NCBI RefSeq assembly: GCF_023721795.1
Contig: NZ_JAMQYE010000002.1
Location: forward strand, 248,001 to 312,000
Direction: 5' to 3'
Origin: Zeimonas sediminis
GTDB taxonomy: Bacteria; Pseudomonadota; Gammaproteobacteria; Burkholderiales; Burkholderiaceae_E
DNA: 64,000 nt
Below the pieces are notes generated by a model, which did no database searches, was not told the DNA's origin, and saw nothing but the letters and a program-made list of their open reading frames with translations. The translations under genes and the position numbers were made by a program. Positions 16,620 through 33,468 of the stretch are shown here, one piece after another (the first letter of the stretch is position 1; each line of letters opens with the position of its first letter).

Positions 16620-17231
16620 TCAGGCCGGCGGCGCCAGGTCGGCAGGGACGTCGACGTCGCTCACGCACCCCGGGTCGTCGCAGCGCACCCGCGCGAGCGC
16701 GTCGGGCGACTCGCGCAGCAGGGCCGCCGCCCCCGCCTCGTCGCCGATCGCGAGCAGCCGCGGCCGCAGCGAGGCCGCGAAGCCGACCGGATGGCCGGCC
16801 CGACCCGCCAGCGGATGCCCGGGCGGACCCTCGACGAAGGGCCTCGCGATCGCCGCGCCGGCCTCGAGCCGAGCCCGGACCGCAGCGTGCGTGGCGCGCG
16901 AAACGAAGGGCATGTCGCCGAGCGCGACCAGCCAGCCGAGCGAGGGCCGGGTCTCGCGCACGCCGCACTTCAGGGTCGCGCCCATGCCGAGCGCGGCCTC
17001 GGGGCAGCGCAGCAGCCGCACTGCCAGGCCCGCCAGCAGGCGCTCGGCCTCCTGCTGCCGCGCGCCGCAGACGACGACGATCTCGTCGGCCACGCCGACC
17101 AGTGCCTCGCAGGCGGCCCGCAGCACCGGCCTGCCGTCGGGCAGCGGCGCGGCCAGCTTCCAGGCGCGGCCGTCCGGGTCGAAGCGGCGTCCTTCCCCGG
17201 CCGCGAGCACCAGCGCGCAGACCTCGCTCAT
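16620..17231 (-). CDS. MobA/MocA-like molybdopterin nucleotidyltransferase
   Basis: Encodes 203 aa with the NTP-transferase fold. The N-terminal signature LVLAAGEGRRFDPDGRAWKL (residues 6-25) is the nucleotide-binding loop; WLVALGDMPFVS holds the metal-binding Asp. MocA-type relatives add CMP to molybdopterin to make the MCD cofactor used by xanthine oxidase-family enzymes, and MobA makes MGD. It lies 13 bp downstream of nicB, which belongs to the class that uses MCD, so service to NicB is the likely job. The ATG at 17231 was chosen because the family motif starts at residue 6; a longer upstream reading would run into nicB. Confidence 0.83.
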   Translation of the reverse strand: MSEVCALVLAAGEGRRFDPDGRAWKLAAPLPDGRPVLRAACEALVGVADEIVVVCGARQQEAERLLAGLAVRLLRCPEAALGMGATLKCGVRETRPSLGWLVALGDMPFVSRATHAAVRARLEAGAAIARPFVEGPPGHPLAGRAGHPVGFAASLRPRLLAIGDEAGAAALLRESPDALARVRCDDPGCVSDVDVPADLAPPA

Positions 17232-17244
17232 CGCCGCGACCGGG

Positions 17245-20200
17245 TCACGGCGCCGACGGCTTCGCGCGGATTCGCGAGACCGCGGCGTCGAGCCCGGTCC
17301 ACGCCGGCGCACCGGGCGCGAACCGGGCGCGCATCCAGGCCGCGAGCGCGGCGACCTGGCGGTCGTCGAGACTGTCTGCAAAGCCGGGCATGAAGCCGAG
17401 CGCCGGCGTCGCCGGCTCGCGGATGCCCTCGAGGATCGTCCGCACCAGATTGTCCGGCCGGTCGCTGTGCAGGCTGGTGGCGAGCGCCAGCGGGATGTTG
17501 CGGCCGGTCTCGACCGGCGCGTCGCCGTCGTGGTGGCAGGCGCCGCAGGCCCGCTCGAACATCCGCTGCTCGGGCCCGCGCAGCAGCGCGGCCTGCGCCG
17601 TCGCGCGATCGACCGCCGCCTGCGCCGCGGCCGCCGCCTGCGGCATGCCGGCAGGCGTCGAGACCGAGGCCAGGTAGTGCGCGATCGCGCGGACGTCTTC
17701 GTCGGGCACTTGCGACAGCTCGCGCACCACCGCGGCCATCGGGCCGGCCGCGACGCCGTGACGGTCGCTGAAGCCTTCGCGCAGGTAGTCGTAGAGATCG
17801 CCCTCGGTCCAGGGCACCGGCGCGCGGCTGGCGGCGGTCAGCTCCGGCGCTTCCCAGCCGTCGATCACCGCGCCGGCGAGCCAGGCTTCGCCGCGCCGCT
17901 CGGCGCCCAGCGCGTTGCGCGGCGTGTGGCATGCGCCGCAGTGGCCGAGGCCGTTGACCAGGTACTCGCCGCGGTTCCACTGCGCGCTGCGCGCCGGGTC
18001 GGCCGCGACCGGGCCGGGGTCGAGGTACAGCGCGTTCCACAGCGCCATCAGCGGCCGCGCGCCGAACGGGAAGGCGAGCTTCGTGGCCGGCGGCTCGGCG
18101 CGCACCGCCGGCTGAGACATCAGGTAGGCGTACAGCGCGGTCAGGTCGTCGTCGGTGACCCGGGTGAACGCGGTGTACGGGAAGGCGGGATACAGGTGGC
18201 GGCCGTCGCGCGAGATCCCCTCGCGCATCGCGCGCTGGAAAGCGCTGAACGACCAGTTGCCGATGCCGGTCTCGGGATCGGGCGTCAGGTTGGTCGAATG
18301 CACGATGCCGAACGGCGTCTCCATCGCGCGCCCGCCGGCATTCGGCACGCCGCCCGGCGCGGTGTGGCACACGACGCAGTCGCCGGCCGCGGCGAGCTGG
18401 CGACCGCGCTCGATCACGGCGGCGGTCCAGATCGACGGATCGGGCCGGCTCACCGGCGCGATCGCGGGCTTCCATCCGAGCGCCGCGCCGCCGAGCGCGA
18501 CCAGGCCCGCGGCGAGCGCGCCCAGCGTTCCCCACCAGCGCCGGCGCGGCTTCGGCGGATCGGCCCGCTCCGGGGGCGGCGGATTCAGCGCCGCGCGCAC
18601 CACCTCGGGCGTGAACGGCGGCTTGCGAAAGCGCACGCCGGTCGCGTCGAAGATCGCGTTGGCGATCGCCGCGGTGCCCGGCACCGACGAGGACTCGCCG
18701 GCGCCCTGCGGCGGCTGGTCGGGCCGCGGCATCATCATCACCTCGATGACCGGCACCTCGCGGAAGCTGAGGATCGGGTAGCTGCCCCACTCCCGGCTCG
18801 CCACCGTGTTGGTCGCCGGGTCGATCCGCACCTGCTCCTTCAGCGCGCGGCTGGTGGTCTGCACGACGTTGCCGTGGATCTGGTGCTTCACCCCGGCCGG
18901 GTTGATCATCAGCCCCGCATCGTGGCCGACGACCACGCGGCTCACGTGCACGTCGCCGGTGACCCGGTTGACCTCGACGTCGGCGACCCAGGCAGCCCAC
19001 GCGGCGCCGAAGCCGGGGAAGCGGCTGTGCACGTAGCGGGCGTAGGCGAAGCCCTGCCCCTTCAGGATGTCGCCCTCGGGCGGCCTGAGCATCGGGCGGT
19101 CGTGCGGCACCCAGCCGGCCCGGTCGGCGGTCGCCCGGATCAGCTCGGCCGCCCGCGGGTCGTCGAGGTGGCGCAGCCGGAACTCGACCGGGTCGACGCC
19201 CGCGGCGGTGGCCAGTTCGTCGACGAAGGACTCGTGCGCGAAGGAGTTGGGCAGCGCCGACACGCCGCGCAGCCACGACGCGCGCAGGATCGGCGCCATG
19301 TCGTCGATCGACACGCGCAGGTTGTCGTAGCGATAGGGCGGCACCGAGGTCCGGTCGCCCATCTCGTAGGCGACCGGCTCGGGCGGCACCGCGCCGGTCA
19401 GCAGCAGCGCGAGCGTGACCGCGCCGTTGGACGGGTAGGCGGTTCGGAAGTCGTAGCCGGCCACGGTGCCGTCGGCGTTCAGCCCGCCCGACACGTCCAT
19501 CAGCTGGGCCGCGCCCTTCGGCTCCCACAAATGCTCCTGCTCGCGCGTGAGCTGCACCCGCACCGGCCGGCCGACCGCCTTCGACAGCAGCGCCGCGTCG
19601 GCCGCGACGTCGTCGGCGCAGTTTCGGCCGTAGCAGCCCGAGGCCTCCATCCGGATCAGGTCGATCGACGTCTCGGGCAGGCCGGTGAGCTTCGCCAGGT
19701 CCGCGCGCAGCGCGTGCGGATACTGGGTCCCGGCCCAGACCGTCATCCGGTCGCCGCGCCAATCGGCCAGCGCGCACGAAGGCCCTATCGACGCGTGCAT
19801 CTGGTAGGGCCAGACGTAGGTGCGCTGCATCGTGACCGCCGCGCCGGCGAGCGCAGCGTCGACGTCGCCGCGCTCGGCCACGACCCGGCGCTTCGACGGG
19901 TTGTCGCGGATCGCCTGCTCGAGGTCCGAGAGCTGCGGCAGCGCCGGCCAAGGCTTCCAGCCGAGCTTCAGCTCGCGCATCGCGCGTTCGGCCTGCTCCT
20001 CGCGCTCGGCCACCACGCCGACGAAATCGCGGACCACGACGACGGCGACGATTCCCGGAATGTGCGCGATCGAGGACTCGTCGACCGACTCGAGCGAATT
20101 GCCGATGAAGGGCCCGTGGTCGGCGCCCGACCAGGGCGGCCGCACGACGCGGCCGTGCAGCATGCCCGGCACCCGCACGTCGTGCACGAATACGGTCTCG

Positions 20201-20829
20201 CCGGTGGCCTTGGCAGGGATGTCGACCCGCGGCACCGGCTGGCCGACGATCCGGTAGGCCTCGGGCGGCTTGACCCCGACCTCGGCGGCCAGCATCAGCT
20301 CGACGTGACGGCCGGCGACCAGCTCGCCGTAGCCGATCGCACGCGACGGATCGCCGGCCACACGCACCGTGCCGTCCTCGACCGCGAGCGCGTCGGGCGC
20401 CACGCCGAGCCGCACTGCCGCCTCGTCGACCAGCCAGGCCCTCGCCTGGGCCGCGGCCTTGCGCAGCGGCACCGCGTGGATCTGGATCGAGGCGCTGGCG
20501 ATCGTGGCGCCCTGGTTCGGCGCCCGGGTCGTGTCGCCGAGCACCATCTCGACGCGGTCGAGCGCCACGTCGAGCTCCTCGGCGGCGATCTGCGCGAGCG
20601 CCGTTCGGATGCCGGTGCCGAGGTCGACGTGGCCGTTCAGCGCGGTGACGCTGCCGTCGTCCCAGACCGCGACCAGGATCTCGGGCCCTTCGGCCGGATT
20701 GCCGGGCACCGCCGGCGGCTGTCCCGGCGCCGGCGGTGGCGGCGGCGGCGGGTCGCGCATCACCAGCAGCACGCCGGCGGCCGCGCGGAAGTCGGCGCGG
20801 CTCAGCGCCTGCGCGGCGCGCCGGGTCAT
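17245..20829 (-). CDS. nicB: Nicotinate dehydrogenase-like large subunit: molybdopterin domain fused to three cytochrome c domains
   Basis: Encodes 1194 aa. Residues about 15-740 form a xanthine dehydrogenase-family molybdopterin-binding subunit of the IorB/NicB type; the motif GESSSVPGTAAIANAIF near residue 700 carries the expected catalytic Glu. A hydrophobic segment (about 763-785) follows, then three CXXCH haem motifs (CVVCH about 818, CGACH about 963, CGACH about 1094). This order and length match NicB of Pseudomonas putida, which hydroxylates nicotinate at C6 and passes electrons to the cytochrome chain. The start overlaps the nicA stop (ATGA). A poly-Pro stretch is present near residue 27. 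Isoquinoline 1-oxidoreductase IorB is the main alternative; the neighbouring hnr and enamidase genes favour nicotinate. Confidence 0.85.
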   Translation of the reverse strand: MTRRAAQALSRADFRAAAGVLLVMRDPPPPPPPAPGQPPAVPGNPAEGPEILVAVWDDGSVTALNGHVDLGTGIRTALAQIAAEELDVALDRVEMVLGDTTRAPNQGATIASASIQIHAVPLRKAAAQARAWLVDEAAVRLGVAPDALAVEDGTVRVAGDPSRAIGYGELVAGRHVELMLAAEVGVKPPEAYRIVGQPVPRVDIPAKATGETVFVHDVRVPGMLHGRVVRPPWSGADHGPFIGNSLESVDESSIAHIPGIVAVVVVRDFVGVVAEREEQAERAMRELKLGWKPWPALPQLSDLEQAIRDNPSKRRVVAERGDVDAALAGAAVTMQRTYVWPYQMHASIGPSCALADWRGDRMTVWAGTQYPHALRADLAKLTGLPETSIDLIRMEASGCYGRNCADDVAADAALLSKAVGRPVRVQLTREQEHLWEPKGAAQLMDVSGGLNADGTVAGYDFRTAYPSNGAVTLALLLTGAVPPEPVAYEMGDRTSVPPYRYDNLRVSIDDMAPILRASWLRGVSALPNSFAHESFVDELATAAGVDPVEFRLRHLDDPRAAELIRATADRAGWVPHDRPMLRPPEGDILKGQGFAYARYVHSRFPGFGAAWAAWVADVEVNRVTGDVHVSRVVVGHDAGLMINPAGVKHQIHGNVVQTTSRALKEQVRIDPATNTVASREWGSYPILSFREVPVIEVMMMPRPDQPPQGAGESSSVPGTAAIANAIFDATGVRFRKPPFTPEVVRAALNPPPPERADPPKPRRRWWGTLGALAAGLVALGGAALGWKPAIAPVSRPDPSIWTAAVIERGRQLAAAGDCVVCHTAPGGVPNAGGRAMETPFGIVHSTNLTPDPETGIGNWSFSAFQRAMREGISRDGRHLYPAFPYTAFTRVTDDDLTALYAYLMSQPAVRAEPPATKLAFPFGARPLMALWNALYLDPGPVAADPARSAQWNRGEYLVNGLGHCGACHTPRNALGAERRGEAWLAGAVIDGWEAPELTAASRAPVPWTEGDLYDYLREGFSDRHGVAAGPMAAVVRELSQVPDEDVRAIAHYLASVSTPAGMPQAAAAAQAAVDRATAQAALLRGPEQRMFERACGACHHDGDAPVETGRNIPLALATSLHSDRPDNLVRTILEGIREPATPALGFMPGFADSLDDRQVAALAAWMRARFAPGAPAWTGLDAAVSRIRAKPSAP

Positions 20830-21323
20830 CGCAGCGGCTCCTGGGCATCGGCGAGCAGCTTCGCCGCCAGCCCGACCGCCGCGAGGATCTCGAGGTGCGT
20901 GCCGCAGCGGCACAGGTTGTGCGACAGCGCGTCGCGCACCTGCGCCTCGGTGGGAGCGGGGTTCCGGGCGAGCAGCGCCACCGTGCTCATGATCATGCCG
21001 TTCAGGCAGTAGCCGCACTGCGCGGCCTGCGCCTCGATGAAGGCGCGCTGGACCGGGTGCGGCGCCTCGCGGCTGCCGAGCCCCTCGAGCGTGGTCACGC
21101 TGCGCCCGGCCACGCCGCTCACCGGCATCACGCAGGCACGCGCCGCCCGGCCGTCGACCAGCACGGTGCAGGCGCCGCACTGCCCGAGGCCGCAGCCGTA
21201 CTTCGGGCCGTTCAGACCGAGGTCGTTTCGCAGCACCGCCAGCAGCGGCGCATCGGCCGGCACCTGCAGCGCGTGCCGGCGGCCGTTGACCGTGAGCTCG
21301 ATCGGTTCGCCGTTCGCTGTCAT
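20826..21323 (-). CDS. nicA: Nicotinate dehydrogenase-like small subunit, two [2Fe-2S] clusters
   Basis: Encodes 165 aa of the small Fe-S subunit of xanthine oxidase-family hydroxylases. The plant-type cluster motif YGCGLGQCGACTVL is at about residues 42-55, and the second cluster uses CGYCLNGM (about 103) and NLCRCGTH (about 136). It relays electrons from the molybdenum centre in NicB towards its haems. It lies 23 bp downstream of livF and overlaps nicB by 4 nt, so the two subunits are made together. The medium FAD subunit of classical xanthine dehydrogenases is absent, as expected for a cytochrome-linked two-subunit enzyme. Confidence 0.88.
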   Translation of the reverse strand: MTANGEPIELTVNGRRHALQVPADAPLLAVLRNDLGLNGPKYGCGLGQCGACTVLVDGRAARACVMPVSGVAGRSVTTLEGLGSREAPHPVQRAFIEAQAAQCGYCLNGMIMSTVALLARNPAPTEAQVRDALSHNLCRCGTHLEILAAVGLAAKLLADAQEPLR

Positions 21324-21346
21324 CGCCCGTGGCGCGCCGACGCGCC

Positions 21347-22156
21347 CTACACCGACAGGTAGGCGCGGCGCACTTCCTCGTTGTCGGAGAGCTCCTGCAT
21401 CGTCGCCTCGTAGCGGATCTGCCCCTTCTCCAGGACGTAGGCGCGATCGGACACGATCTCGGCGAAGTGCATGTTCTGCTCCGACAGCAGGATGCTGACG
21501 CCCTGGGCCTTGAGCTCCAGGATCATCTGCGCCATCTGCTCGACGATGACCGGCGCGACGCCCTCGGAGGGCTCGTCCAGCAGCACGAGATAGGGGTTGC
21601 CCATCAGCGTGCGCGCCACGGTGAGCATCTGCTGCTCGCCGCCGCTCATCCGGCCGCCGGGGCGATCCGGCATCTCGCCGAGGTTCGGGAAGAGTTCGAA
21701 CAGCTTGCCGGGCGTCCAGGAAGGCGCGGCGGCGCCGTCGGGCCAGCGCCGGGGCGGCTGCCTGCCCACCTCGAGGTTCTCGGTGACGGTCAGGTCGGTG
21801 AAGATCCGCCGGTCCTCGGGCACGAAGCCCAGCCCGGCCGATGCGACCTGGTGGGACTCCGCGTTCGAGATGTCGCGCCCCATGAACGCGAGCCGGCCGC
21901 GCCGGCGCGGCACCATGCCCATGATCGCCTTGAGCGTGGTCGACTTGCCCGCGCCGTTGCGGCCCATCAGCGCGACGACCTCGCCCCGGCTTACGTTCAG
22001 CGACACGTCGAACAGGATGCGCGCGCCGCCGTACCAGGCCGACAGCCCGTCGACCTCGAGCAGCGACCCGTCCTGCGGCGAATGGCGCTGCGCGACCCGT
22101 TCGCTCCGCTCGATCCGCGCGTCCACTGCACCCCCCTCCCCGCTGCCGAGGCTCAT
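21347..22156 (-). CDS. livF: Branched-chain-type ABC transporter ATP-binding protein LivF
   Basis: Encodes 269 aa. The ABC ATPase core shows Walker A MGRNGAGKSTTLKAI (about residues 70-84), signature RMSGGEQQML and Walker B LVLLDEPSEGVAP. It is somewhat longer than usual LivF because of a 30-residue N-terminal extension and an insert rich in Pro/Arg near residue 155. It energises import by the fused permease upstream. The ATG overlaps the livG stop (ATGA). Position between the permease and nicAB suggests the imported solute is the substrate of NicAB. Confidence 0.93.
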   Translation of the reverse strand: MSLGSGEGGAVDARIERSERVAQRHSPQDGSLLEVDGLSAWYGGARILFDVSLNVSRGEVVALMGRNGAGKSTTLKAIMGMVPRRRGRLAFMGRDISNAESHQVASAGLGFVPEDRRIFTDLTVTENLEVGRQPPRRWPDGAAAPSWTPGKLFELFPNLGEMPDRPGGRMSGGEQQMLTVARTLMGNPYLVLLDEPSEGVAPVIVEQMAQMILELKAQGVSILLSEQNMHFAEIVSDRAYVLEKGQIRYEATMQELSDNEEVRRAYLSV

Positions 22157-22968
22157 CGGATCGCCTCGCTCGCGACGCTCGCCGGCCCGGCGCCCTGCCC
22201 GGCCGCCGGACGCTTCTTCTCGAAGGTCTTGCCGGAACCGAAATAGACCTCCTGCACCTTCGGATGGTCGCGGATCTCGGCCGGCTGCCCCTCCGCGATC
22301 AACCGGCCGCGCGCCAGCACGATCATCCGGTCGGCATAGGCGAAGACGACGTCCATGCTGTGCTCGGTGAACAGCACCGCCATGTCGCGCTCGACCACCA
22401 GGCGCTTGGTGAGCGCCATCAGGTCGTTGCGCTCCTTCGGCGCCATGCCGGCGGTCGGCTCGTCCATCAGCAGCAGCTTCGGCGCGTTGGCCATCGCGAT
22501 CGCCAGCTCGACCCGCTTGACGTCGCCGTAAGCGAGCACGCTGCAGGGCCGGTCGGCCTGCGCGGCCATGCCGACCTGGTCGAGCAGTTCGATCGCCTCG
22601 GCGCGGCGGTGCCGCGCGCCGCGCGCCCACATCGAGTAGAGCCGCCGGTCCGCCGACATCAGCGCCATCTGCACGTTCTCGACCGCGGTCAGCGAGGAGA
22701 AGGTCTCGGCGATCTGGAAGGTCCGGCCCACGCCGAGCCGCCAGATCTCGCGCGGCTTCAGCCCGATCAGCTCGGTGCCGTCGAGCCGGATCGAGCCCGA
22801 GTCGGCGCGCAGCTGGCCGTTGACCATGTTGAAGGTGGTGGACTTGCCGGCGCCGTTCGGCCCGATCAGCGCAAGCAGCTCGCCCCGGGCGAGCTCGAAG
22901 TCGATGCCGTCGACCGCGCGCACGCCGCCGAAGGACTTGCCCAGCCCGGTGACTTTCAGCAGGCTCAT
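22153..22968 (-). CDS. livG: Branched-chain-type ABC transporter ATP-binding protein LivG
   Basis: Encodes 271 aa. Walker A is IGPNGAGKSTTFNMV (about residues 36-50) and Walker B is LLLMDEPTAGMAP; the Q-loop lies in RTFQIAETF and the switch His in FTEHSMDVVF. The signature reads LAYGDVKRVELA, with Asp-Val instead of the usual Asp-Gln/Gln-Arg, a variation seen in LivG proteins. An Ala/Gly-rich 25-residue tail follows the domain. It starts 4 bp after the livHM stop and overlaps livF. Confidence 0.93.
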   Translation of the reverse strand: MSLLKVTGLGKSFGGVRAVDGIDFELARGELLALIGPNGAGKSTTFNMVNGQLRADSGSIRLDGTELIGLKPREIWRLGVGRTFQIAETFSSLTAVENVQMALMSADRRLYSMWARGARHRRAEAIELLDQVGMAAQADRPCSVLAYGDVKRVELAIAMANAPKLLLMDEPTAGMAPKERNDLMALTKRLVVERDMAVLFTEHSMDVVFAYADRMIVLARGRLIAEGQPAEIRDHPKVQEVYFGSGKTFEKKRPAAGQGAGPASVASEAIR

Positions 22969-22972
22969 TCGC

Positions 22973-24862
22973 TCAGGCCTCCTCGCCCAGCCTGCGCGCC
23001 GCGACCTGCCTGGCGAAGCCGGCGATCCCCTGCGGGAACAGCAGCACCAGCAGCAGGATGATCGCGCCCAGCATCGCGCGCCAGTAGTCGGTGTTGCGTG
23101 CGACCGTGTCGTGCAGCCAGGTGAAGGTGACCGCGCCCACGACCGGTCCGACCAGGGTCTGCAGGCCGCCCAGCAGCACCATGACCAGCCCGTCGATCGA
23201 GCGCGCCACGTGCAGCGTTTCGGGCGAGATGCTGCCCTTCGAGAACGCGAACAGCGCGCCGGCCACCCCGGCGAACAGGCCGGCGATCACGAAGGCGGCC
23301 CACTGCACGCGCTTGACGTCGATGCCGATCGCGTCGGCCCGGGTCGGCGAGTCGCGGCCCGCGCGCATCGCGTAGCCGAAGGGCGAGAACAGCATCCGGC
23401 GCAGCAGCAGCACGCCCGCCGCCACGAAGGCCAGCGTCAGGTAGTAGTAGTTGACCTTGTCCGACAGCCACTCCGAGGGCCAGACCCCGGTCAGCCCGTT
23501 GCTGCCGCCGGTGAAGTCGTCCCACTGGTAGACGATCGCCCACGCGATCTGCGCGAAGGCCAGTGTCAGCATCGCTAGGTAGACGCCCGAGAGCCGGACG
23601 CTGAACCAGCCGAAGATCACCGCGCCGATCGCCGCGACCAGCGGCGCGAGCAGCAGCGTGAGCTCCATCGGCACCCCCAGCGCGCGCACGAGCAGCGCCG
23701 CGCCGTAGGCGCCCAGCCCGAAGTAGGCCGCGTGGCCGAACGAGTGCAGGCCGGCCGGCCCCATGATGAAGTGCAGGCTGGTCGCGAACAGCGCCGCGAT
23801 CAGCAGGTCGATCGCCAGCACGGTCAGGTAGGGCGAGGCCTTCGTCAGCAGCGGGAACACCACCAGCCCGGCCAGCACCGCGAGGCTCGCGTACAGGAAG
23901 GGCCGGGTGGCCGCGCGAAGCGGCGGCTCGACCGCGCCCGCGTGCCGGCTCGCCCCCTGCGGGCGCCCGAGCAGTCCCCATGGCCGCCAGACCAGCACGA
24001 CCGCCATCACCAGGAACTCCACGACGAGCGTGAGCTTGGAGAACGACACCTCGAAGCCGAACACGTCGACGACGCCGAGCCAGATGCAGATCGCCTTGAG
24101 CTCGGCGATCAGCAGCGCGGCCACGTAGGCGCCGGGGATCGAGCCCATGCCGCCCACCACGACCACCACGAAGGCCGCGCCGATCGTGTGCAGGTCCATC
24201 TCCAGGTTGGCCGGCTCCCGCGGCAGCTGCAGCGCGCCGCCGAGGCCCGCGAGCATCGCGCCGAGCGCGAACACCGCGGTGAACAGCCAGGCCTGGTTGA
24301 CGCCGAGCGCGCCGACCATCTCGCGATCTTGCGTGGCGGCGCGCACCAGCGTCCCCCATCGGGTCCTGGTGAGCAGCAGCCAGAGCAGGCCGAGCACCAC
24401 CGGCCCGACCACGATCAGGAACAGGTCGTACTCCGGAAACTGGCGGCCGAGGATCGTGACCGATCCGGCCAGCCCCGGCGCGCGCGGCCCGAGCAACTCT
24501 TCCGGGCCCCACAGCCAAAGCACCGCGTCCTTGACCACCAGCACCAGCGCGAAGGTGGCGAGCAGCTGGAACAGCTCGGGCGCACGGTAGATCCTGCGCA
24601 GGAGCAGGATCTCGACGAGCGCGCCGAGCAGGCCCACCGCCAGCGCGGCCAGCAGCAGCGCCGGCCAGAACCCGATGCCGGCGCCCATCCGCTCGACCAG
24701 CGACCAGGCGATGTAGACGCCGACCATGTAGAACGAGCCGTGCGCGAAGTTGACGATCCGGGTGACGCCGAAGATCAGCGACAACCCGGCCGCCACCAGG
24801 AACAGCGAAGACGCGCCGGCCAGCCCGTTCAGCAACTGGACGATGAAGCCCGAGAAGCTCAT
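22973..24862 (-). CDS. livHM: Fused LivH-LivM branched-chain-type ABC permease
   Basis: Encodes 629 aa that join two permeases usually made separately. Residues about 1-290 match LivH (FIVQLLNGLAGASSLFLVAA, then IFGVTRIVNFAHGSFYMVG), and residues about 310-620 match LivM (HSFGHAAYFGLGAYGAALL, then YAMRAGRDSPTRADAIGIDV, the coupling loop that contacts the ATPase). There are about 16 hydrophobic segments in total. It would form the whole membrane channel of this importer. The ATG shares one base with the stop of the binding-protein gene (TGATG). Such fusions occur sporadically in Burkholderiales. Confidence 0.92.
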   Translation of the reverse strand: MSFSGFIVQLLNGLAGASSLFLVAAGLSLIFGVTRIVNFAHGSFYMVGVYIAWSLVERMGAGIGFWPALLLAALAVGLLGALVEILLLRRIYRAPELFQLLATFALVLVVKDAVLWLWGPEELLGPRAPGLAGSVTILGRQFPEYDLFLIVVGPVVLGLLWLLLTRTRWGTLVRAATQDREMVGALGVNQAWLFTAVFALGAMLAGLGGALQLPREPANLEMDLHTIGAAFVVVVVGGMGSIPGAYVAALLIAELKAICIWLGVVDVFGFEVSFSKLTLVVEFLVMAVVLVWRPWGLLGRPQGASRHAGAVEPPLRAATRPFLYASLAVLAGLVVFPLLTKASPYLTVLAIDLLIAALFATSLHFIMGPAGLHSFGHAAYFGLGAYGAALLVRALGVPMELTLLLAPLVAAIGAVIFGWFSVRLSGVYLAMLTLAFAQIAWAIVYQWDDFTGGSNGLTGVWPSEWLSDKVNYYYLTLAFVAAGVLLLRRMLFSPFGYAMRAGRDSPTRADAIGIDVKRVQWAAFVIAGLFAGVAGALFAFSKGSISPETLHVARSIDGLVMVLLGGLQTLVGPVVGAVTFTWLHDTVARNTDYWRAMLGAIILLLVLLFPQGIAGFARQVAARRLGEEA

Positions 24863-26064
24863 CAGTCGGCCGGACGCAGCTTCTTGACGACCTCGTCGGA
24901 CGGCAGCACCTTGGTGCCGTCGACGTAGCGGTAGTCGACCATCACGCCCTTGCCGCCCTCGTTCTTCGTGCGGCCCACGTAGCCGCCCATCGTGGACTGG
25001 TGGTCCTGCGGGCGGTAGGTGATCCGTCCGAAGGGCGTGTCGACCTCGAGCCCGCGGAAGGCGGCGATCATCTTCTCGGTGTCGGCGGAACCGGCCTTCT
25101 TCAGGCCCGCGGCCAGCGACATGATCGAGCTGTAGCCGACCACCGTGCCCAGGCGCGGATAGTCGTTGAACTTCTTCTGATAGGCCGCGAGGAAGGCCTT
25201 GTGCTCGGGCGTGTCGATCCCGTACCACGGATAGCCGGTGACCAGCCAGCCGTTGGGCGATTCGTCCTTCAGCGGATCGAGGTACTCGGGCTCGCCGGTC
25301 AGCAGGCTGACCACCTCGCGGTCCTTGAACAGGCCACGGGTGTTGCCCTCGCGAACGAACTTCGCCAGGTCGGCGCCGAACAGCACGTTGAAGATGCCGT
25401 CGGGCTTCGCGTCGGCCAGCGCCTGCACGACGCTGCCCGCGTCGACCTTGCCCAGCGGCGGCGCCTGCTCGGTCACGAACTCGATGTCGGGCTGCGCCTC
25501 CTTCATCAGCTGCTTGAAGGTGGCGGCCGCAGACTGGCCGTACTCGTAGTTCGGATAGACCAGCGCCCAGCGCTTCTTCTTCATCGCCACCGCGTCGGGC
25601 ACCAGCATCGCGACCTGCATGTACGTCGACGGGCGCAGCCGGAAGGTGTAGCGGTTGCCGTTCTGCCAGGTGATCTTGTCGGTGAGCGGCTCGGCGGCAA
25701 GGAAGAACACCTTCTTCTGCTTGGCGAAGTCGGTGATCGCCAGGCCGATGTGCGACAGGAAGGTCCCGGTGAGCAGGTCGACGCGCTCGCGCGAGACCAG
25801 CTCCTCGGCGGCGCGGACCGCGTCGCCCGGGTTCGCGTTGTCGTCGCGGATCACCAGCTCGATCTTCTTGCCGTTCACGCCGCCGGCCGCGTTGACCTGC
25901 TCGACGGCGAGCTCCATGCCCTTGCGGTAGGGCTCGAGGAAGGCGGGCTGCGCCTTGTAGCTGTTGACCTCGCCGATCTTGATGACGCCCTGCGCGCTCG
26001 CCGGGGCGGCGAGCGTGGCGGCCAGCGCGGCGATGCCGGCCGCGAGGATTCGTTTCGTGTGCAT
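24862..26064 (-). CDS. ABC transporter periplasmic substrate-binding protein (Leu/Ile/Val-binding type)
   Basis: Encodes 400 aa. A Sec signal peptide (MHTKRILAAG to about residue 24, cleavage after APASA) is followed by a type I periplasmic binding fold (VIKIGEVNSYKAQPAFLEPY; TGTFLSHIGLAITDFAKQK). It captures the solute for the fused permease and LivFG. The family name refers to branched-chain amino acids, but members bind many acids, including aromatic carboxylates. Placed between DUF1185 genes and nicAB, the likely ligand is nicotinate or a related pyridine carboxylate; this is inference from context only. Confidence 0.88.
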   Translation of the reverse strand: MHTKRILAAGIAALAATLAAPASAQGVIKIGEVNSYKAQPAFLEPYRKGMELAVEQVNAAGGVNGKKIELVIRDDNANPGDAVRAAEELVSRERVDLLTGTFLSHIGLAITDFAKQKKVFFLAAEPLTDKITWQNGNRYTFRLRPSTYMQVAMLVPDAVAMKKKRWALVYPNYEYGQSAAATFKQLMKEAQPDIEFVTEQAPPLGKVDAGSVVQALADAKPDGIFNVLFGADLAKFVREGNTRGLFKDREVVSLLTGEPEYLDPLKDESPNGWLVTGYPWYGIDTPEHKAFLAAYQKKFNDYPRLGTVVGYSSIMSLAAGLKKAGSADTEKMIAAFRGLEVDTPFGRITYRPQDHQSTMGGYVGRTKNEGGKGVMVDYRYVDGTKVLPSDEVVKKLRPAD

Positions 26065-26102
26065 CGTCCTGCTCTCCCTGGATGAAATCGGATCAGACAA
26101 CT

Positions 26103-26687
26103 TCAGCGCAACCCGTCGGTGCCCTGGATTTCGCCGACCTGCAGGCCGCCGATTCGCGGCAGCGGCCGGCCGCCGTCGGTGACCGCGACGGCCACGACGA
26201 TCTCGTTGGCGCGCGGCGCGTCGCCCACCCGCGCCTCGATCGCGTCGAAGTGGCTGCGCACGTAGGCGGCGTCCTTGTGGCCGAGCGGCACGTCGATCGC
26301 GGTGCCCATGCCGCCGCGCTTCTTGGCGGACGGCACCAGCGCCGCCCCCTTCTCGACCGCCTTGCGCAGCGGCGCGCCCAGCTTCGGGTGCAGGATCGCC
26401 GCGGCGTGCTCGAGCTCGCCGGCCTCGCCGACGATCGCCGCCTTGCCGTAACTGTGCGCCCGGCCCGGCTCGATGCCCAGCGCCTTCACGCACTTCTCGC
26501 CGAGCAGCCCGCCGAGCTCCTCGCCGATCGCGATCAGCTCGTCGAGGTTCTCGACGTAGCGCCCGGCGCAAGGGTTCTCGATCACGGCGATCGCCACGGC
26601 GCGCCGGATCGGCGGCTCGATCGCCTTGCCCATCTCGACGCGGGTCTCGTCGACCTGCACGACGAGCTTCCTGATCCTTGCCGACAT
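26103..26687 (-). CDS. DUF1185 'amino acid synthesis' family protein, copy A
   Basis: Encodes 194 aa of the PF06684 family (called amino acid synthesis, without biochemical proof). Conserved segments are VIENPCAGRYVENLDELI (about 35-52), SYGKAAIVGEAGELEHAAAI (about 79-98) and PLGHKDAAYVRSHFDAIEAR (about 134-153). No signal peptide or membrane segment. It lies 26 bp downstream of copy B and 38 bp upstream of the binding-protein gene. The two copies share the same order of motifs and may form a heteromer. Its position inside the nicotinate locus suggests an enzymatic step there, which is not identified. Confidence 0.85.
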   Translation of the reverse strand: MSARIRKLVVQVDETRVEMGKAIEPPIRRAVAIAVIENPCAGRYVENLDELIAIGEELGGLLGEKCVKALGIEPGRAHSYGKAAIVGEAGELEHAAAILHPKLGAPLRKAVEKGAALVPSAKKRGGMGTAIDVPLGHKDAAYVRSHFDAIEARVGDAPRANEIVVAVAVTDGGRPLPRIGGLQVGEIQGTDGLR

Positions 26688-26713
26688 CTTCGGTTTCTCC
26701 TCGTCTGCTGCGT

Positions 26714-27355
26714 TCAGCGCTGGCCGTCCCAGCGCGAGATCTCGGACGCCTTCAGCCCGCCGACCCGCGCGTGCACGCGGGCCCCGGTGCTCATCACCAG
26801 CACCAGCGCGAGCTCGTCGGGCAGCGGCGCGCCCGGAACGCGGACCTCGAACGCGTCGAAGTGGCTTCGCACGTAGGCCGCGTTGATGTGGGTGAGCGGC
26901 ACGTCCAGCGTGGCGCCCGGCGGGCCGACCTTCTTGGTCGAGGGCACGATCGCCAGCGCGTTGCCGGGCTGGCCGCCCTCGGCGGCGCCCTGACCCTGGG
27001 CATACGCGGCGGCGTTACCCTTCCAGCCGAGCAGCTCGCGCATCGCGTAGCCGCCGGGCACGTGCCAGAGCGCGCCGTGCTCGAGCTCGCCGTCGGCGCC
27101 CACGATCGCGCCCTTTCCGTAGCTTTCGATGCGCTCGACCGGTTCGTCCATCGCCGCCAGCAACCGGTGCGCCATCTGCACGCCGACAGGCTGCAGCGCG
27201 TCCATCATCGGCAGGATGTCGGGCTCGTAGCGCCCCGAGTACGGGTTGCGCAGCACCGCGACGATCGCGCCACGCCGCTGGGGCCGCTCCGGCGGCGGCC
27301 CGAACTCGTGGAAGATGTCCTCGACCTGCGTGAAGACCCGACGAATCTCGATCAT
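26714..27355 (-). CDS. DUF1185 'amino acid synthesis' family protein, copy B
   Basis: Encodes 213 aa, a paralogue of copy A: AVLRNPYSGRYEPDILPMMD (about 33-52), SYGKGAIVGADGELEHGALW (about 77-96) and PLTHINAAYVRSHFDAFEVR align with the same motifs. It carries an extra about 15-residue insertion after the second motif. The ATG at 27355 is the only start that keeps a family-like N-terminus (MIEIRRVFTQVEDIFHEFG). It is 52 bp downstream of the UPF0280 gene. Divergence between the copies (roughly one third to two fifths identity by eye) argues for distinct roles rather than recent duplication. Confidence 0.85.
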   Translation of the reverse strand: MIEIRRVFTQVEDIFHEFGPPPERPQRRGAIVAVLRNPYSGRYEPDILPMMDALQPVGVQMAHRLLAAMDEPVERIESYGKGAIVGADGELEHGALWHVPGGYAMRELLGWKGNAAAYAQGQGAAEGGQPGNALAIVPSTKKVGPPGATLDVPLTHINAAYVRSHFDAFEVRVPGAPLPDELALVLVMSTGARVHARVGGLKASEISRWDGQR

Positions 27356-27407
27356 TCCCGAATCACTCCTCGCTGTTCCCGCACCCGTCGCTCCTGGTGG
27401 CCACCGT

Positions 27408-28430
27408 TCAGGCGAAGCCCGGAGCGGCCGCCGCCGCGCCGGCCCGGGACCGCACGGGCGGTGCAGACTGCCCGGCCGCCGTGTCGACCCGCCCTCCGGC
27501 CACCGCACCGGACGCCGCCGCGTCGGGCCTGGCGCCGGGCTCGCCGACGACGGCCGCCTGTCCCTGGCAGACCAGCACGGCCGCCCGCAACAATCCGCGT
27601 CCGTGCAAGTCCCGTGCCCGCCGCACGCCCGCGTGCAGCGCATGCGCCACCGCAGTCCGTCCGAGCGTCGGCACGTCGACCACGACGAGCCGGTCGCCGA
27701 GATCGGTATCGTCGCGCAATTCGCTGGCCGCGCGGCGAACGATGCGCGGATCGTCGACATCGACCGCGTTGGCCACCATCGTGGCCGCGGCGTCCGCCTG
27801 CGCGGCGGTTCCGGCGAGCACGGTGACGCTGTCGGCGATGCCCAGCGAGAAGCTGCGACCGCGCCAACCGCTGGTGGCGATGCCGCGCACCGGCATCGCG
27901 GCGCCGATCTCGAATCGGCCGTCGAGCCCGAGCGGTGCGCCGCGGCCGGGCACGATGCCCGAAAGCGGGGCGAGGCGCGCCAGGTCGGCGAACAGGCCGA
28001 CTCTGGCCGAGTTGCCCTCGGCCAGGTGCAGCGCGATGTCCCCGCCGTTGTTGACCCAGGCGCGAGCGATGCCGGGGCGGCGGTACGAGGCGACGATCTC
28101 GTCGGCGACCGCGCCGGCGACCGCCGCCATCGCGGTTATGAACTCGTCTGCGAAGGGCAGGCAGGCGGCCCACATCTGCCGGGCGACCGGCCCGCGAAGC
28201 GGACAGCGCGAACCGGCCTGCCCGTCTTCGATCGCGGCCGGCAACAACGGCGCGCGCAGCGCCGGCAACTCGCCGACCAGCTCCTGCAGCACCGTGGCGA
28301 AGCGCGCCCACGCGGCCTCGTGGGCGGCCCGCACGGCGGCCGGCTCGCCGTCGGCGCCGATCACCAGGTCGATCGGGCCGTGCGAGAAGTGCCAGCGGTT
28401 TCCGGAAAGCGGCGCGCGCTGCGCGGTCAT
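27408..28430 (-). CDS. UPF0280 (ApbE-like) family protein
   Basis: Encodes 340 aa of the UPF0280 family, which is related in fold to the flavin transferase ApbE. Typical segments are SGNRWHFSHGPIDLVIGA at the N-terminus, ARAWVNNGGDIALHLAEG (about 150), MPVRGIATSGWRGRSFSLGI (about 210) and VTVLAGTAAQADAAATMVAN. The C-terminal 50 residues are low-complexity Ala/Gly. The function is unknown. It starts 10 bp after the hnr stop; an alternative upstream ATG at 28460 would overlap hnr. Coupling to hnr raises the possibility that it matures or assists that flavoprotein, but this is inference. Confidence 0.85.
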   Translation of the reverse strand: MTAQRAPLSGNRWHFSHGPIDLVIGADGEPAAVRAAHEAAWARFATVLQELVGELPALRAPLLPAAIEDGQAGSRCPLRGPVARQMWAACLPFADEFITAMAAVAGAVADEIVASYRRPGIARAWVNNGGDIALHLAEGNSARVGLFADLARLAPLSGIVPGRGAPLGLDGRFEIGAAMPVRGIATSGWRGRSFSLGIADSVTVLAGTAAQADAAATMVANAVDVDDPRIVRRAASELRDDTDLGDRLVVVDVPTLGRTAVAHALHAGVRRARDLHGRGLLRAAVLVCQGQAAVVGEPGARPDAAASGAVAGGRVDTAAGQSAPPVRSRAGAAAAAPGFA

Positions 28431-28440
28431 CGGTCGGTCC

Positions 28441-30099: not shown

Positions 30100-30210
30100 C
30101 GCCTGCGCGCCTTCATGGCCTGGATGGGTGCCCCCGTAGCGGCCGGCTTCGTGCCGCGGCCGCCTGCCGCGGCGGCCTGCGCGCCTGTTGCGCCTGCCGC
30201 CCGGTTTTAT

Positions 30211-30246
30211 GTAGGATTCACTTAACGTTGATGTTGTGAACGCTAC
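30211..30246. promoter_or_regulatory. Candidate operator between hnr and the ferredoxin-NADP reductase gene
   Basis: The 253-bp divergent gap is GC-rich except for an AT-rich island at about 30205-30270. In it lies an imperfect inverted repeat: GTAGGATTCAC (30211-30221) and GTGAACGCTAC (30236-30246), matching at 9 of 11 positions over a 14-nt spacer. It could bind the TetR-family protein encoded at 31130 and control both directions. Promoter hexamers at good spacing could not be assigned with confidence on either strand. The rest of the gap (30100-30204 and 30271-30352) shows nothing I can name. Confidence 0.45.
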
Positions 30247-30352
30247 ATTGGCGGAAAGTTAAACACGAAAGCCGGCGCCCGCGCAACGGCTTTTTCGAAC
30301 CCCCGCCCCGGGCCCCGAGAGCGACGGCCCGCGGCACCATGGAGCCGCCCGG

Positions 30353-31126
30353 ATGGCCGCCTTCGACGAAGAACGCGTGCTCAGCGTCCACCACTGGACC
30401 GATCGCCTGTTCACCTTCACCACCACGCGCAACCAGGCGCTGCGGTTCAGGAACGGGCACTTCACGATGATCGGGCTCAGGGTCGACGGCAAGCCGCTGC
30501 TGCGCGCCTACAGCATCGTGAGCCCGAACTACGAGGACCACCTCGAGTTCCTGAGCATCAAGGTTCCCGACGGCCCGCTGACATCGCGGCTGCAGCACAT
30601 CCAGCCGGGCGACTCGATCATCGTCGGCCACAAGCCCACCGGCACGCTGGTGATCGACTACCTGCTGCCCGGCAAGCGGCTGTACCTGCTGTCGACCGGC
30701 ACCGGGCTGGCGCCCTTCATGAGCATCATCCGCGACCCGGACACCTACGAGAAGTTCGACACGGTGATCCTGGTGCACGGCGTGCGACAGGTCGACGAGC
30801 TCGCCTATCACGACATGCTGGTCGAGCAGCTGCCGCACCACGAGTTCATCGGCGAGATGGTGTCGAGCAAGCTGCGCTACTACCCGACGGTGACGCGCGA
30901 GCAGTACCAGAACATGGGCCGCGTCACCGAGCTGATCGAGTCGGGCAAGCTGTTCGCGGACCTCGGCGTGCCGCCGCTCGACCCGAAGGAGGACCGCGTG
31001 ATGATCTGCGGCAGCCCGGCGATGCTGCGCGACCTCAAGCGCATGCTCGAGGAGCGCGGGTTCACCGAGGGCAACACTTCCACGCCCGGCGACTTCGTCA
31101 TCGAGCGCGCGTTCGCCGAGCAGTAG
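30353..31126 (+). CDS. Ferredoxin-NADP+ reductase
   Basis: Encodes 257 aa of the bacterial Fpr-type FNR family. The FAD motif LLRAYSIVSPNYEDH is at about residues 47-61, and the NADP motif STGTGLAPFMSIIRDP at about 115-130; the C-terminus ends DFVIERAFAEQ, as in Fpr proteins whose last residues cover the flavin. It moves electrons between NADPH and ferredoxin (or flavodoxin). First gene of the rightward unit, 4 bp before tetR. Next to a presumed ferredoxin-dependent 6-hydroxynicotinate reductase, it probably supplies reduced ferredoxin from NADPH; FdxA at 33.1 kb is the obvious partner. Confidence 0.92.
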   Translation: MAAFDEERVLSVHHWTDRLFTFTTTRNQALRFRNGHFTMIGLRVDGKPLLRAYSIVSPNYEDHLEFLSIKVPDGPLTSRLQHIQPGDSIIVGHKPTGTLVIDYLLPGKRLYLLSTGTGLAPFMSIIRDPDTYEKFDTVILVHGVRQVDELAYHDMLVEQLPHHEFIGEMVSSKLRYYPTVTREQYQNMGRVTELIESGKLFADLGVPPLDPKEDRVMICGSPAMLRDLKRMLEERGFTEGNTSTPGDFVIERAFAEQ

Positions 31127-31129
31127 CCG

Positions 31130-31903
31130 ATGTCCCGGCCGGCCCGCTCCACCGCCCCGGCGGGCACCGCGCGCCCGGCCGCGTCCAGGCCGGGCGCCGC
31201 CGGCCCGAGGAAGCGCGCCGCGCCCGGCACGGCCCGCAAGCCCGGCACGCGCGAGCTCGCCGCGCAGGCGACCCGGGAAAGCCTGCTGCGCGCCGCGATC
31301 AGGGTCTTCGCCCGGCACGGCTTCGCGGGCGGCCGGATCGAGCAGATCTCGAAGGCGGCCCGGTCGCACGACCGGATGATCTACTACTACTTCGGCAGCA
31401 AGGAAGGCCTGTTCATCGCGGTGATCGAGGAGATCTACCGTCGCTTCAACGAGGCCGAGTCCGAGCTCGCGCTCGACCTCGATCGCCCGGTCGAGGCGCT
31501 CGAGACGATCATCCGGTTCATCTGGTCCTACTACAACCGGCACCCCGAGTTCATCACGCTGCTGAACTCGGAGAACCTGCACCGCGGGCGGCACATCTCC
31601 AAGTCGCGCCGGCCGGGCGAGTACTCGTCGCCGGCGATCTCGCTGCTCGAACGGGTGCTGCGAAGCGGCGCGCAACGGGGCCGCTTCCGCGCCGAGCTGC
31701 GGGCGCGCGACGTCTACCTGCTGATCGCCTCGCTCGGCTATTTCTACCTGTCGAACCGTCACACGCTGTCGACCTTCCTCGGCGAGAACCTCGAGGCGCC
31801 CGAGGCGCTGGCCTACTGGGAGCGATTCATCATCGACTCGGTGCTGCGCGTCGTCTCGCCGTCCACCCCCCGCCCCACCGCATCGGAGACCGAACATGGC
31901 TGA
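31130..31903 (+). CDS. TetR/AcrR-family transcriptional regulator
   Basis: Encodes 257 aa. A 40-residue Ala/Pro/Arg-rich extension precedes the helix-turn-helix (about residues 48-95: LLRAAIRVFARHGFAGGRIE, then DRMIYYYFGSKEGLF). The C-terminal half is helical, with a TetR C-terminal (YDR/RutR-like) domain as seen in regulators of N-heterocycle breakdown. It probably senses a pathway intermediate and represses the divergent promoters at about 30.2 kb. A start downstream of the extension cannot be ruled out. The enamidase ATG lies inside its last codons (8-nt overlap). Confidence 0.88.
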   Translation: MSRPARSTAPAGTARPAASRPGAAGPRKRAAPGTARKPGTRELAAQATRESLLRAAIRVFARHGFAGGRIEQISKAARSHDRMIYYYFGSKEGLFIAVIEEIYRRFNEAESELALDLDRPVEALETIIRFIWSYYNRHPEFITLLNSENLHRGRHISKSRRPGEYSSPAISLLERVLRSGAQRGRFRAELRARDVYLLIASLGYFYLSNRHTLSTFLGENLEAPEALAYWERFIIDSVLRVVSPSTPRPTASETEHG

Positions 31904-33092
31904 AGCCGCGAGCGCCGGAAAATCCGGCAAGGTCGTCATCAGGAACATCGGCCTGCTCCTGTCCGGCGACATCGATCGCCCGATCCTCGACGCCGACACG
32001 ATCGTCGTGAACGACGGCATCATCGCCGCGGTCGGACGCGAAGCCGAATGCGACACCGGCCAGCCCGACACGCTGATCGACGCGCGCGGCACCTGCGTGT
32101 GCCCGGGCCTGATCGACAGCCACGTGCACCCGGTCTTCGGCGACTGGACCCCGCGCCAGAACCAGCTCGGGTGGATCGATTCCACGATGAACGGCGGCGT
32201 GACCACGATGATCTCCGCCGGCGAGGTGCACCTGCCCGGCCGACCCAAGGACATCGTCGGGCTGAAGGCGCTGGCGATCACCGCGCAGCGGGCCTTCGAC
32301 AACTTCCGGCCGGGCGGCGTGAAGGTGCTTGCCGGCGCGCCGGTCATCGAGAAGGGCATGACCGAGCAGGACTTCGCCGACCTGGCGCAGGCCGGCGTGA
32401 AGCTGCTCGGCGAGGTGGGCCTGGGATCGGTGAAGGCCGGCGACGAGGCGAAGCAGATGGTCGCCTGGGCGCGCAAGCACGGGATCCAGAGCACGATCCA
32501 CACCGGCGGGCCCTCGATCCCGGGCTCCGGGCTGATCGACAAGGACGTGGTGCTGGAGGCCGACGCCGACGTGATCGGGCACATCAACGGCGGCCACACC
32601 TCGCTGCCCGAGGCGCACGTGTGCGAGCTCTGCGAGAAGTCGTCGCGGGCGATCGAGATCGTGCACAACGGCAACGAGAAGGTCGCGATCGCCGCCGCGC
32701 AGGCCGCGCTGCAGCTGAAGTGCCCCCACCGTGTGATCCTCGGCACCGACGGCCCGGCCGGCTCGGGCGTGCAGCCGCTGGGCATGCTGCGGATGATCGC
32801 GCTGCTCTCGAGCATGGCCGGCATTCCGGCCGAGCTGGTCTTCTGCTTCGCCACCGGCAACACCGCCCGGATCCGCAACCTGAACTGCGGGCTGGTCGAA
32901 CCGGGCCGCGCGGCCGACTTCGTGTTCATGGACCGCGCCCAGCACACGGCCGGCCGCACGCTGCTCGAGAGCGTGCAGCTCGGCGACATCCCTGGCGTCG
33001 GCATGGTGATGATCGACGGCATCGTGCGCTGCGGGCGCAGCCGCAACACGCCCCCGGCCACCGAGGTGCCGGTCGTGGTCGGCGCGCATTGA
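31896..33092 (+). CDS. ena: Enamidase (amidohydrolase superfamily)
   Basis: Encodes 398 aa and closely resembles the enamidase of Eubacterium barkeri, which hydrolyses 1,4,5,6-tetrahydro-6-oxonicotinate to 2-formylglutarate and ammonia. Shared features from memory of that protein are the start [26 protein letters not shown] (metal HxH, about residues 72-84), the segment [19 protein letters not shown] (bridging Glu), [19 protein letters not shown] and GTDGPAGSG (metal Asp). All expected metal ligands appear present. It overlaps tetR by 8 nt and precedes fdxA by 52 bp. It supplies the ring-opening step after Hnr. Confidence 0.87.
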
Positions 33093-33144: not shown

Positions 33145-33468
33145 ATGACTCACGTCGTCCTCGATTCCTGCATCCGGTGCAAGTACACCGATTGCGTCGA
33201 CGTCTGCCCGGTCGACTGCTTCCGTGAAGGGCCGAACATGCTCGTCATCGACCCCGACGAATGCATCGACTGCGCGGTCTGCATTCCCGAGTGCCCGGTC
33301 GAGGCGATCGTGGCCGAGGAAGACGTGCCCGCCGACCAGCGCCAGTTCACCGAGCTGAACGCCGAGCTGGCCAAGGTCTGGCCGAGCATCACCCGCACCA
33401 AGGATTCCCTGCCCGACGCCGACGACTGGAAGGACGTCAAGGGCAAGCTGGAGCACCTGCAGCGTTGA
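33145..33468 (+). CDS. fdxA: Seven-iron ferredoxin FdxA
   Basis: Encodes 107 aa. The N-terminal Cys arrangement ([18 protein letters not shown], then [14 protein letters not shown]) is that of [3Fe-4S][4Fe-4S] ferredoxins of the Azotobacter FdI / FdxA type. The C-terminal 50 residues are the usual extension. It is a cytoplasmic low-potential electron carrier. The stop overlaps the TTG start of the large flavoprotein gene (TTGA), so the two are probably coupled. The pair fdxA-flavoprotein followed by phaZ is, to my knowledge, a common Burkholderiales order, so fdxA may be core genome rather than part of the accessory locus. Confidence 0.94.

Follow-up and report, generated by a model that had tools for sequence, protein, structure and literature searches.

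Our results indicate that a stretch of 64,000 nucleotides from Zeimonas sediminis (the window: positions 248001 to 312000 of contig C2 in genome G000, which is 3.86 Mb long, in 3 contigs and with a completeness of 99.03) very probably carries a nicotinate catabolic locus of the type known from Azorhizobium caulinodans. In such a locus, nicotinate is expected to be hydroxylated by a respiratory enzyme (NicAB), after which 6-hydroxynicotinate reductase (Hnr) reduces the ring and an enamidase (Ena) opens it. The locus also encodes a UPF0280 protein, which is a candidate helper for the flavin of Hnr, and two DUF1185 proteins, which perhaps act on formylglutarate. An earlier note on this DNA had already proposed that the organism respires through the first step and then takes the reductive branch. 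This proposal is supported by the kinship of NicB, the homology of the enamidase, the absence of NicX, and the weakness of all matches to NicC. Hence, it is a well supported prediction for this locus that nicotinate is 6-hydroxylated by a respiratory enzyme and that the ring is then opened by the reductive route.

Entry enzyme and ring opening

Both subunits of the entry enzyme can be recognized. NicA has two [2Fe-2S] domains and eight cysteines, and NicB fuses a molybdopterin domain to three c-type haem sites. The three CXXCH motifs of NicB, which the earlier note had mentioned, lie at residues 818, 964, and 1095. We compared this protein to four NicBs from nic clusters, which we selected among the 664 plasmid records that had a match. 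Over 95–99% of its length, the window NicB is 59.4% identical to the protein from Pseudomonas sp. BYT-5, 58.7% to that from Pantoea sp. At-9b, 62.4% to that from Azospirillum lipoferum, and 57.4% to that from Mesorhizobium loti. A paralogue in its own genome is 42% identical over residues 194–758. The four plasmid clusters also hold a flavin adenine dinucleotide (FAD) monooxygenase in the place of nicC, an alpha/beta hydrolase, an Asp/Glu racemase, an amidohydrolase, and a MarR regulator. A nicA-type gene is annotated next to nicB in three of the four clusters, and 2,5-dihydroxypyridine dioxygenase (NicX) is also annotated in three, with none in the M. loti stretch.

In a NicB tree of 34 rows, one group of 28 rows unites all four nic-cluster NicBs with the close NicBs of hnr loci. 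The midpoint root of this tree serves for drawing only, the tree came with a long-branch warning for the own-genome paralogue, and the set of sequences was without other cytochrome-linked hydroxylases. This paralogue (L143) falls into the same group, where its branch has a length of 3.75. This second molybdenum hydroxylase related to NicB is encoded elsewhere in the genome (G000:C1:2907918-2910184; L003, L143, L144). From its kinship with the NicAB of nic clusters, we infer that the window NicAB makes 6-hydroxynicotinate and passes the electrons to cytochrome c.

The ring-opening enzyme is a clear relative of the Eubacterium barkeri enamidase (PDB 2VUN), with which it aligns over residues 11–390 of 398 at 376 bits. 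The residues H76, H78, E173, H202, H229, and D285, which we take to be metal ligands, are identical in this alignment. Sequence search gave no sign that the amidohydrolase groups with enzymes acting on other substrates.

For Hnr, too, no relative acting on another substrate turned up in our searches, which did not extend to an Hnr tree, and a direct comparison with the E. barkeri Hnr lay outside them. We found 129 relatives of hnr, of which the best 80 were kept as loci for the comparison of neighborhoods. The Hnr proteins of these 80 are 70–92% identical to the window protein, and the closest among them is that of Zeimonas arvi (L016; 92%). Further relatives, with identities of 55.5–74.2%, occur in 26 plasmid records. 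Seventeen of these 26 are annotated as 6-hydroxynicotinate reductase, although such an annotation is a name and not a proof. Hnr has no Pfam or NCBIfam match at E 0.001, and nothing credible was found among PDB sequences when it was searched singly and as an alignment. Its AlphaFold2 (AF2) model has a mean predicted local distance difference test (pLDDT) score of 71.7, with 91 residues below 50, and a fold search of the PDB with this model gave nothing at E ≤0.001, for which the quality of the model may be the cause. Seven cysteines are invariant across 112 Hnr homologues. The E. barkeri Hnr reportedly holds one [2Fe-2S] and two [4Fe-4S] clusters, a content that would require more cysteines than these. 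In two genomes, hnr seemed to contain an in-frame TGA, which turned out to be an ordinary stop codon with the alignment running on past it. In one further genome the hnr match falls into two pieces in different frames (G380:C1:2969778-2971258, L131), perhaps because of a frameshift, and the UPF0280 gene beside it is in one piece.

One could argue that the same enzymes serve another N-heteroaromatic acid and that nicotinate is not the main substrate. It is general knowledge that molybdenum hydroxylases and amidohydrolases switch substrates easily, and in some loci hnr is paired with a second type of entry enzyme (see below). Nevertheless, we consider such a substrate very unlikely, given the 57–62% identity of NicB to the NicBs of nic clusters and the alignment of the enamidase with 2VUN over nearly its whole length. 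Neighboring genes also point to nicotinate. In the window, a gene for nicotinate phosphoribosyltransferase (pncB) adjoins the MocA-like gene, which we count as a sign of the substrate. A nicotinamidase-like gene, with what looks by eye like a twin-arginine translocation (Tat) start, is not found in the window. Of the 59 Burkholderiales loci with livF as well as nicA, 35 have this gene; the only member that was scanned (L052, 18772–19500) passes the NCBIfam nicotinamidase model with 177.8 over 174. Finally, the bacterium SG-6C, which bears an hnr cluster, degrades nicotinate with transient 6-hydroxynicotinate, as reported in section 13 of PMC3511419.

The absence of nicC, nicD, and nicX from the window, which had been noted by eye, was borne out by our search: at E 1e-8, neither the window nor any of 119 hnr loci has a match to nicC, nicD, nicE, or nicX. 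For the loci this absence is partly trivial, as many are short (29 of about 4 kb, ten overlapping others). NicX has no match in the entire genome of Z. sediminis either, while the same query was positive in both of two control plasmids at 81–82% identity. Since NicX is missing and the best NicC match is only 33% identical, the oxidative branch is unlikely. That an oxidative branch encoded elsewhere does the main breakdown of 6-hydroxynicotinate, with the hnr branch as an accessory, is barely credible, because the three NicC-like flavin monooxygenases of the genome (best E 1e-46) fall far from the 63.6–74.5% identity that the four nic-cluster NicCs have among themselves, and because NicX would be needed next. 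The reductive branch, as judged from the encoded proteins, is present as far as ring opening.

Conservation and variation of the locus

The earlier note had suggested a comparison across relatives. Most of the best 80 hnr loci share the arrangement seen in the window, which is more than expected by chance. We counted each gene among eligible loci only, so that the denominators depend on the amount of DNA each locus holds. On the minus side, the UPF0280 gene (upf) is found in 78/78 loci, a match to the first DUF1185 protein in 73/73, the substrate-binding protein in 66/68, livHM in 62/63, livG in 61/61, livF in 60/61, nicA in 59/61, and nicB in 52/60. On the plus side, the counts are 63/76 for fnr, 67/70 for tetR, and 63/65 for ena. 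The gap between hnr and upf ranges from 5 to 174 bp in the 80 loci.

Other parts vary more. Two copies of DUF1185 are present in 65 of the 83 loci with room for them, one copy in 17, and none in one. Given these counts, we dropped the idea that both copies are required. A relative of the ferredoxin FdxA lies between fnr and hnr in 17 loci, next to ena in the two loci most closely related to the window, and elsewhere in three. With 22 of 80 loci in total, we no longer regard the ferredoxin as a regular component of such loci.

The best nicB match is below 50% in 6 of the 80 loci (L082, L085, L087, L088, L089, and L094). Here a second type of entry enzyme lies directly upstream of hnr. In the examples scanned, it is a fused 2Fe-2S and molybdopterin protein of 929 amino acids (L089) or 1016 amino acids (L129). 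Only in L129 did a family search confirm a FAD subunit; the open reading frame tried in L089 gave no match. In the NicB tree, the second group consists of L085, L089, L126, and L128–L130. Thus presumed nicotinate dehydrogenases of two architectures occur together with the hnr-upf core.

The second type of molybdenum hydroxylase also adjoins hnr or upf in L126, L128–L130, L183, and L184. In L184, a gene that looks by eye like a Rieske-type oxygenase (10356–11378) lies between the substrate-binding protein and DUF1185. In L182 (7189–10865), hnr is found without an adjacent upf and is followed by a MarR-like regulator and an aldehyde:ferredoxin oxidoreductase-like gene, both recognized by eye.

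Proposed pathway and known systems

In the pathway we propose, nicotinate would be taken up by the Liv-type ATP-binding cassette (ABC) importer and converted to 6-hydroxynicotinate by NicAB, a molybdenum hydroxylase feeding cytochrome c. Electrons from reduced nicotinamide adenine dinucleotide phosphate may then flow through Fnr and ferredoxin to Hnr, which would reduce the ring to 1,4,5,6-tetrahydro-6-oxonicotinate. The enamidase is expected to hydrolyze this compound to ammonium and 2-formylglutarate. By analogy with Azorhizobium, whose pathway continues through glutarate and glutaryl-CoA, the carbon would then probably go to glutarate. A conceivable role of the DUF1185 proteins is to process the unstable formylglutarate, perhaps through decarboxylation, although this is speculation.

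Gene names in Pseudomonas putida follow its nic cluster, nicABCDEFXR. Our locus is similar to this type in its NicB, and differs from it because nicC together with nicX, by which the type is recognized, were not found, nor were nicD and nicE. The fermentation of nicotinate by E. barkeri was reportedly described by Alhapel in 2006. Here the predicted Hnr and enamidase steps are the same, whereas the entry differs: the window has a cytochrome c type NicAB, while the E. barkeri dehydrogenase (Ndh) is said to contain FAD and selenium.

A pathway that combines respiratory and reductive steps is not new. The biochemistry in Azorhizobium caulinodans is old, and is said to go back to work by Kitts in 1989 and 1992. 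The cluster itself was published in 2012; that paper draws hnr clusters (Fig. 4) in four bacteria, Azorhizobium caulinodans (AZC_2804-2790), Bradyrhizobium, Rhodopseudomonas, and SG-6C, and gives 42% identity for the SG-6C Hnr homologue as its homology to the E. barkeri protein (PMC3511419). In its predicted steps, the window locus agrees with the Azorhizobium type: respiratory 6-hydroxylation, reduction to tetrahydro-oxonicotinate, and hydrolytic opening. Both also have an hnr cluster that includes an ABC transporter along with conserved proteins of unknown function. The window locus differs in that it is found in Burkholderiales, and has a divergent fnr-tetR-ena group, fdxA, and pncB nearby.

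Several observations do not fit our pathway easily. In SG-6C no metabolite past 6-hydroxynicotinate was detected, at least according to section 13 of PMC3511419. The proposed electron carriers are not general either: FdxA is limited to the minority of loci given above, 13 of the 76 eligible loci gave no match to fnr, and both families are widespread. The substrate-binding protein alone is no pointer to nicotinate.

UPF0280 and the flavin of Hnr

The Hnr that Alhapel purified from E. barkeri (2006) reportedly carries a covalently bound flavin. This raises the question of whether the locus encodes a factor that attaches it, and the UPF0280 protein is our best single guess, because it is predicted to have the fold of the flavin transferase ApbE, is found in all 35 hnr genomes examined, and 13 of the 32 hnr genomes in our phylum sample show no separate ApbE. 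That UPF0280 helps to install the covalent flavin of Hnr is a hypothesis to which we give a little less than an even chance.

The co-occurrence of the two genes was determined in 398 Pseudomonadota genomes, the same draw being used for both searches. Hnr is found in 32 of the 398, and UPF0280 scores over its cut-off in the identical 32 genomes, although the UPF0280 family model was possibly built from hnr-type loci itself, divergent UPF0280 proteins could escape detection, and the number of independent co-occurrences is lower than 32 because these genomes span 16 genera. Two further UPF0280 matches (G642 and G722) are under the cut-off. A class sample of 369 genomes contained 10 with an hnr match (E 0.001), and the match was long only in G000, G051, G190, and G354. 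The other six, where the match is confined to residues 10–84, were left out of the UPF0280 search. All three additional genomes with a long match also encode UPF0280. Its gene adjoins hnr in G051, lies at a distance of about 10 kb in G354, and is on another contig in G190. In the draft genome G190, upf and hnr are at least about 27 kb apart, as judged by the contig ends. The cases of G190 and G354 weaken the explanation that upf is a mere operon hitchhiker of hnr.

ApbE itself fits poorly as the flavinylating enzyme of Hnr. The ApbE model (PF02424) has no match in the Z. sediminis genome, and the same model was positive in 7 of 14 control genomes. It matches 20 of the 32 hnr genomes, but the match in G510 is below the cut-off and lies inside that genome's own UPF0280 gene. 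This leaves 19 genomes with ApbE and 13 without, namely Z. sediminis and 12 others.

UPF0280 resembles the ApbE family in predicted structure. The AF2 model of the window protein has a pLDDT of 85.5. In a Foldseek search, 2o34 ranks first, and ranks 3 to 41 are entries of ApbE and the related FmnB and Ftp; nine matches have E ≤0.001, with FmnB at E 1e-4 and a probability of 1.00. A UPF0280 profile searched against the PDB gives 2o34 at 1.1e-10 and ApbE at 0.31–0.43, and a profile comparison with E. coli Ftp gives E 2.5e-5 and a probability of 75. The Pfam ApbE model matches 24 of the 29 UPF0280 proteins compared with E values no higher than 1, the best being 1.2e-5. The window protein and its 28 relatives retain GGD, ATSG, and AD-x-A motifs, and the ATSG and ADAxxT motifs are shared with ApbE, Ftp, and FmnB. 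We conclude that UPF0280 is predicted to have an ApbE-like fold, with a similarity that is partial. A literature search found no paper under the name UPF0280; among the matches listed for alternative names, apparently unrelated DUF numbers, no title was relevant.

There are, however, arguments against a flavin transferase. The window protein reaches only 16.5 bits against the Pfam ApbE model, under the cut-off of 25.6, and the overlap with ApbE structures is partial (template modeling scores of 0.24–0.47). The histidine of the SHVIDP motif in Ftp is not kept in UPF0280; a leucine is aligned there in the window protein. In our reading, this histidine equals His257 of Vibrio ApbE, which a review of ApbE describes as the general base (PMC12052999). 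The canonical ApbE acceptor motif, DxxS/TGAS/T, is found in none of the 112 Hnr sequences. Finally, upf in G190 does not follow hnr but what appears by eye to be a dehydrogenase of the second type. Because the catalytic histidine of ApbE is lacking, the flavin role stays a hypothesis.

There is a second explanation. UPF0280 might attach no flavin at all, in which case the flavin of Hnr could attach itself (e.g., to a histidine or cysteine), and UPF0280 could be a flavin-binding assembly protein or serve a different step, possibly at the entry enzyme, as the position of upf downstream of an entry enzyme gene in G190 would suggest. The missing histidine and the missing acceptor motif agree with this explanation, and its chances are close to even. 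What speaks against it is the exact match between UPF0280 and hnr in the 398 genomes, kept even where upf is on a separate contig, the resemblance of the ATSG, GGD, and ADAAAT motifs of UPF0280 to those of ApbE, and a near miss of the ApbE target motif, D-H-I-T-G-x-x-[S/T], which is present in 111 of the 112 Hnr sequences.

In its specific form, our flavin attachment hypothesis makes UPF0280 a second family of enzymes that attach flavin, one that would be cytoplasmic and, in Pseudomonadota, dedicated to Hnr. It would have an ApbE-like fold with another catalytic base and perhaps act at the D-H-I-T-G-x-x-[S/T] motif, and Hnr would have a fold new to the PDB. We regard this as a tentative proposal that somewhat less than half of our expectation rests on.

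Gene content of the locus

The genes of the locus form two divergent groups (Table 1). The minus-strand group runs from hnr outward through UPF0280, DUF1185-2, DUF1185-1, the binding protein, the LivHM permease, livG, livF, nicA, nicB, and the MocA-like gene to pncB; the plus-strand group consists of fnr, tetR, ena, and fdxA. All genes listed in the earlier note (nicA, nicB, hnr, ena, the ABC importer at 21347–26064, fnr, and tetR) are present near the positions it gave. Its molybdopterin cofactor enzyme is the MobA/MocA-like nucleoside triphosphate (NTP) transferase. This protein resembles a cofactor-maturation protein, and its score with the best NCBIfam model falls short of the cut-off. The note did not include fdxA, the two DUF1185 genes, UPF0280, and pncB, the last lying just outside its range of 16620–33092.

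Table 1. Genes of the nicotinate locus, with positions in the window
Gene or product	Position	Strand	Evidence
pncB, nicotinate phosphoribosyltransferase (salvage neighbor)	15303..16478	-	NCBIfam NF003704 584.8 bits, cut-off 379
MobA/MocA-like NTP transferase, probable molybdenum-cofactor cytidylyltransferase	16620..17231	-	PF12804 98.6 bits; TIGR03310 80.9 bits, under cut-off 186
nicB, putative nicotinate dehydrogenase subunit with molybdopterin and three-haem cytochrome c parts, 1194 amino acids	17245..20829	-	MoCoBD_1, MoCoBD_2, and cytochrome c domains
nicA, putative 2x[2Fe-2S] subunit	20826..21323	-	Fer2, Fer2_2; eight cysteines
livF-like ABC ATPase (named by eye)	21347..22156	-	Open reading frame; conservation
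livG-like ABC ATPase (named by eye)	22153..22968	-	Open reading frame; conservation
Fused livH-livM type permease, 629 amino acids	22973..24862	-	BPD_transp_2, two stretches
Periplasmic substrate-binding protein, probably for nicotinate	24862..26064	-	Peripla_BP_6 257 bits
DUF1185/AA_synth protein 1	26103..26687	-	PF06684 243 bits; PDB 2qtp E 1.6e-87
DUF1185/AA_synth protein 2	26714..27355	-	PF06684 225 bits
UPF0280 protein, predicted to fold like ApbE, candidate factor for attaching flavin to Hnr	27408..28430	-	NF003322 376 bits, cut-off 290
hnr, putative 6-hydroxynicotinate reductase, 552 amino acids	28441..30099	-	Annotated plasmid relatives
fnr, ferredoxin--NADP(+) reductase-like	30353..31126	+	NF008178 163 bits, under cut-off 390; FAD_binding_6, NAD_binding_1
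TetR-family regulator	31130..31903	+	PF00440, PF17938
ena, putative enamidase	31896..33092	+	PDB 2vun E 2.3e-111
fdxA, ferredoxin, possible Fnr-to-Hnr electron carrier	33145..33468	+	NF045490 171 bits, cut-off 135

Proteins of the DUF1185 family have solved structures but no assigned function, and SPO0826 (2qtp), the close relative of DUF1185-1, lies near branched-chain ABC transport genes (PMC2954203).

Downstream of fdxA, a large pyridine-nucleotide oxidoreductase gene (about 33465–37232, plus strand, start codon uncertain) precedes a polyhydroxybutyrate (PHB)-depolymerase-like gene. In Z. arvi (L016), fdxA and the PHB-depolymerase-like gene are less than about 200 bp apart, and the oxidoreductase gene has no match at E 1e-3 in loci L001–L134. 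Hence, the gene looks like an insertion. Within it, a 9-bp unit is repeated 9.8 times (35783–35870).

Implications

The locus shows a route of vitamin B3 breakdown, known for decades, in Burkholderiales, and the 80 relatives show how uniform this route is. The larger point is UPF0280, an uncharacterized helper gene that travels with Hnr. If UPF0280 is the flavin transferase of Hnr, then an uncharacterized family, which has matches below the cut-off in two methanogens among our control genomes, would be given its first function. The dearomatizing reductase Hnr would then acquire a maturation step that could be tested with two proteins.

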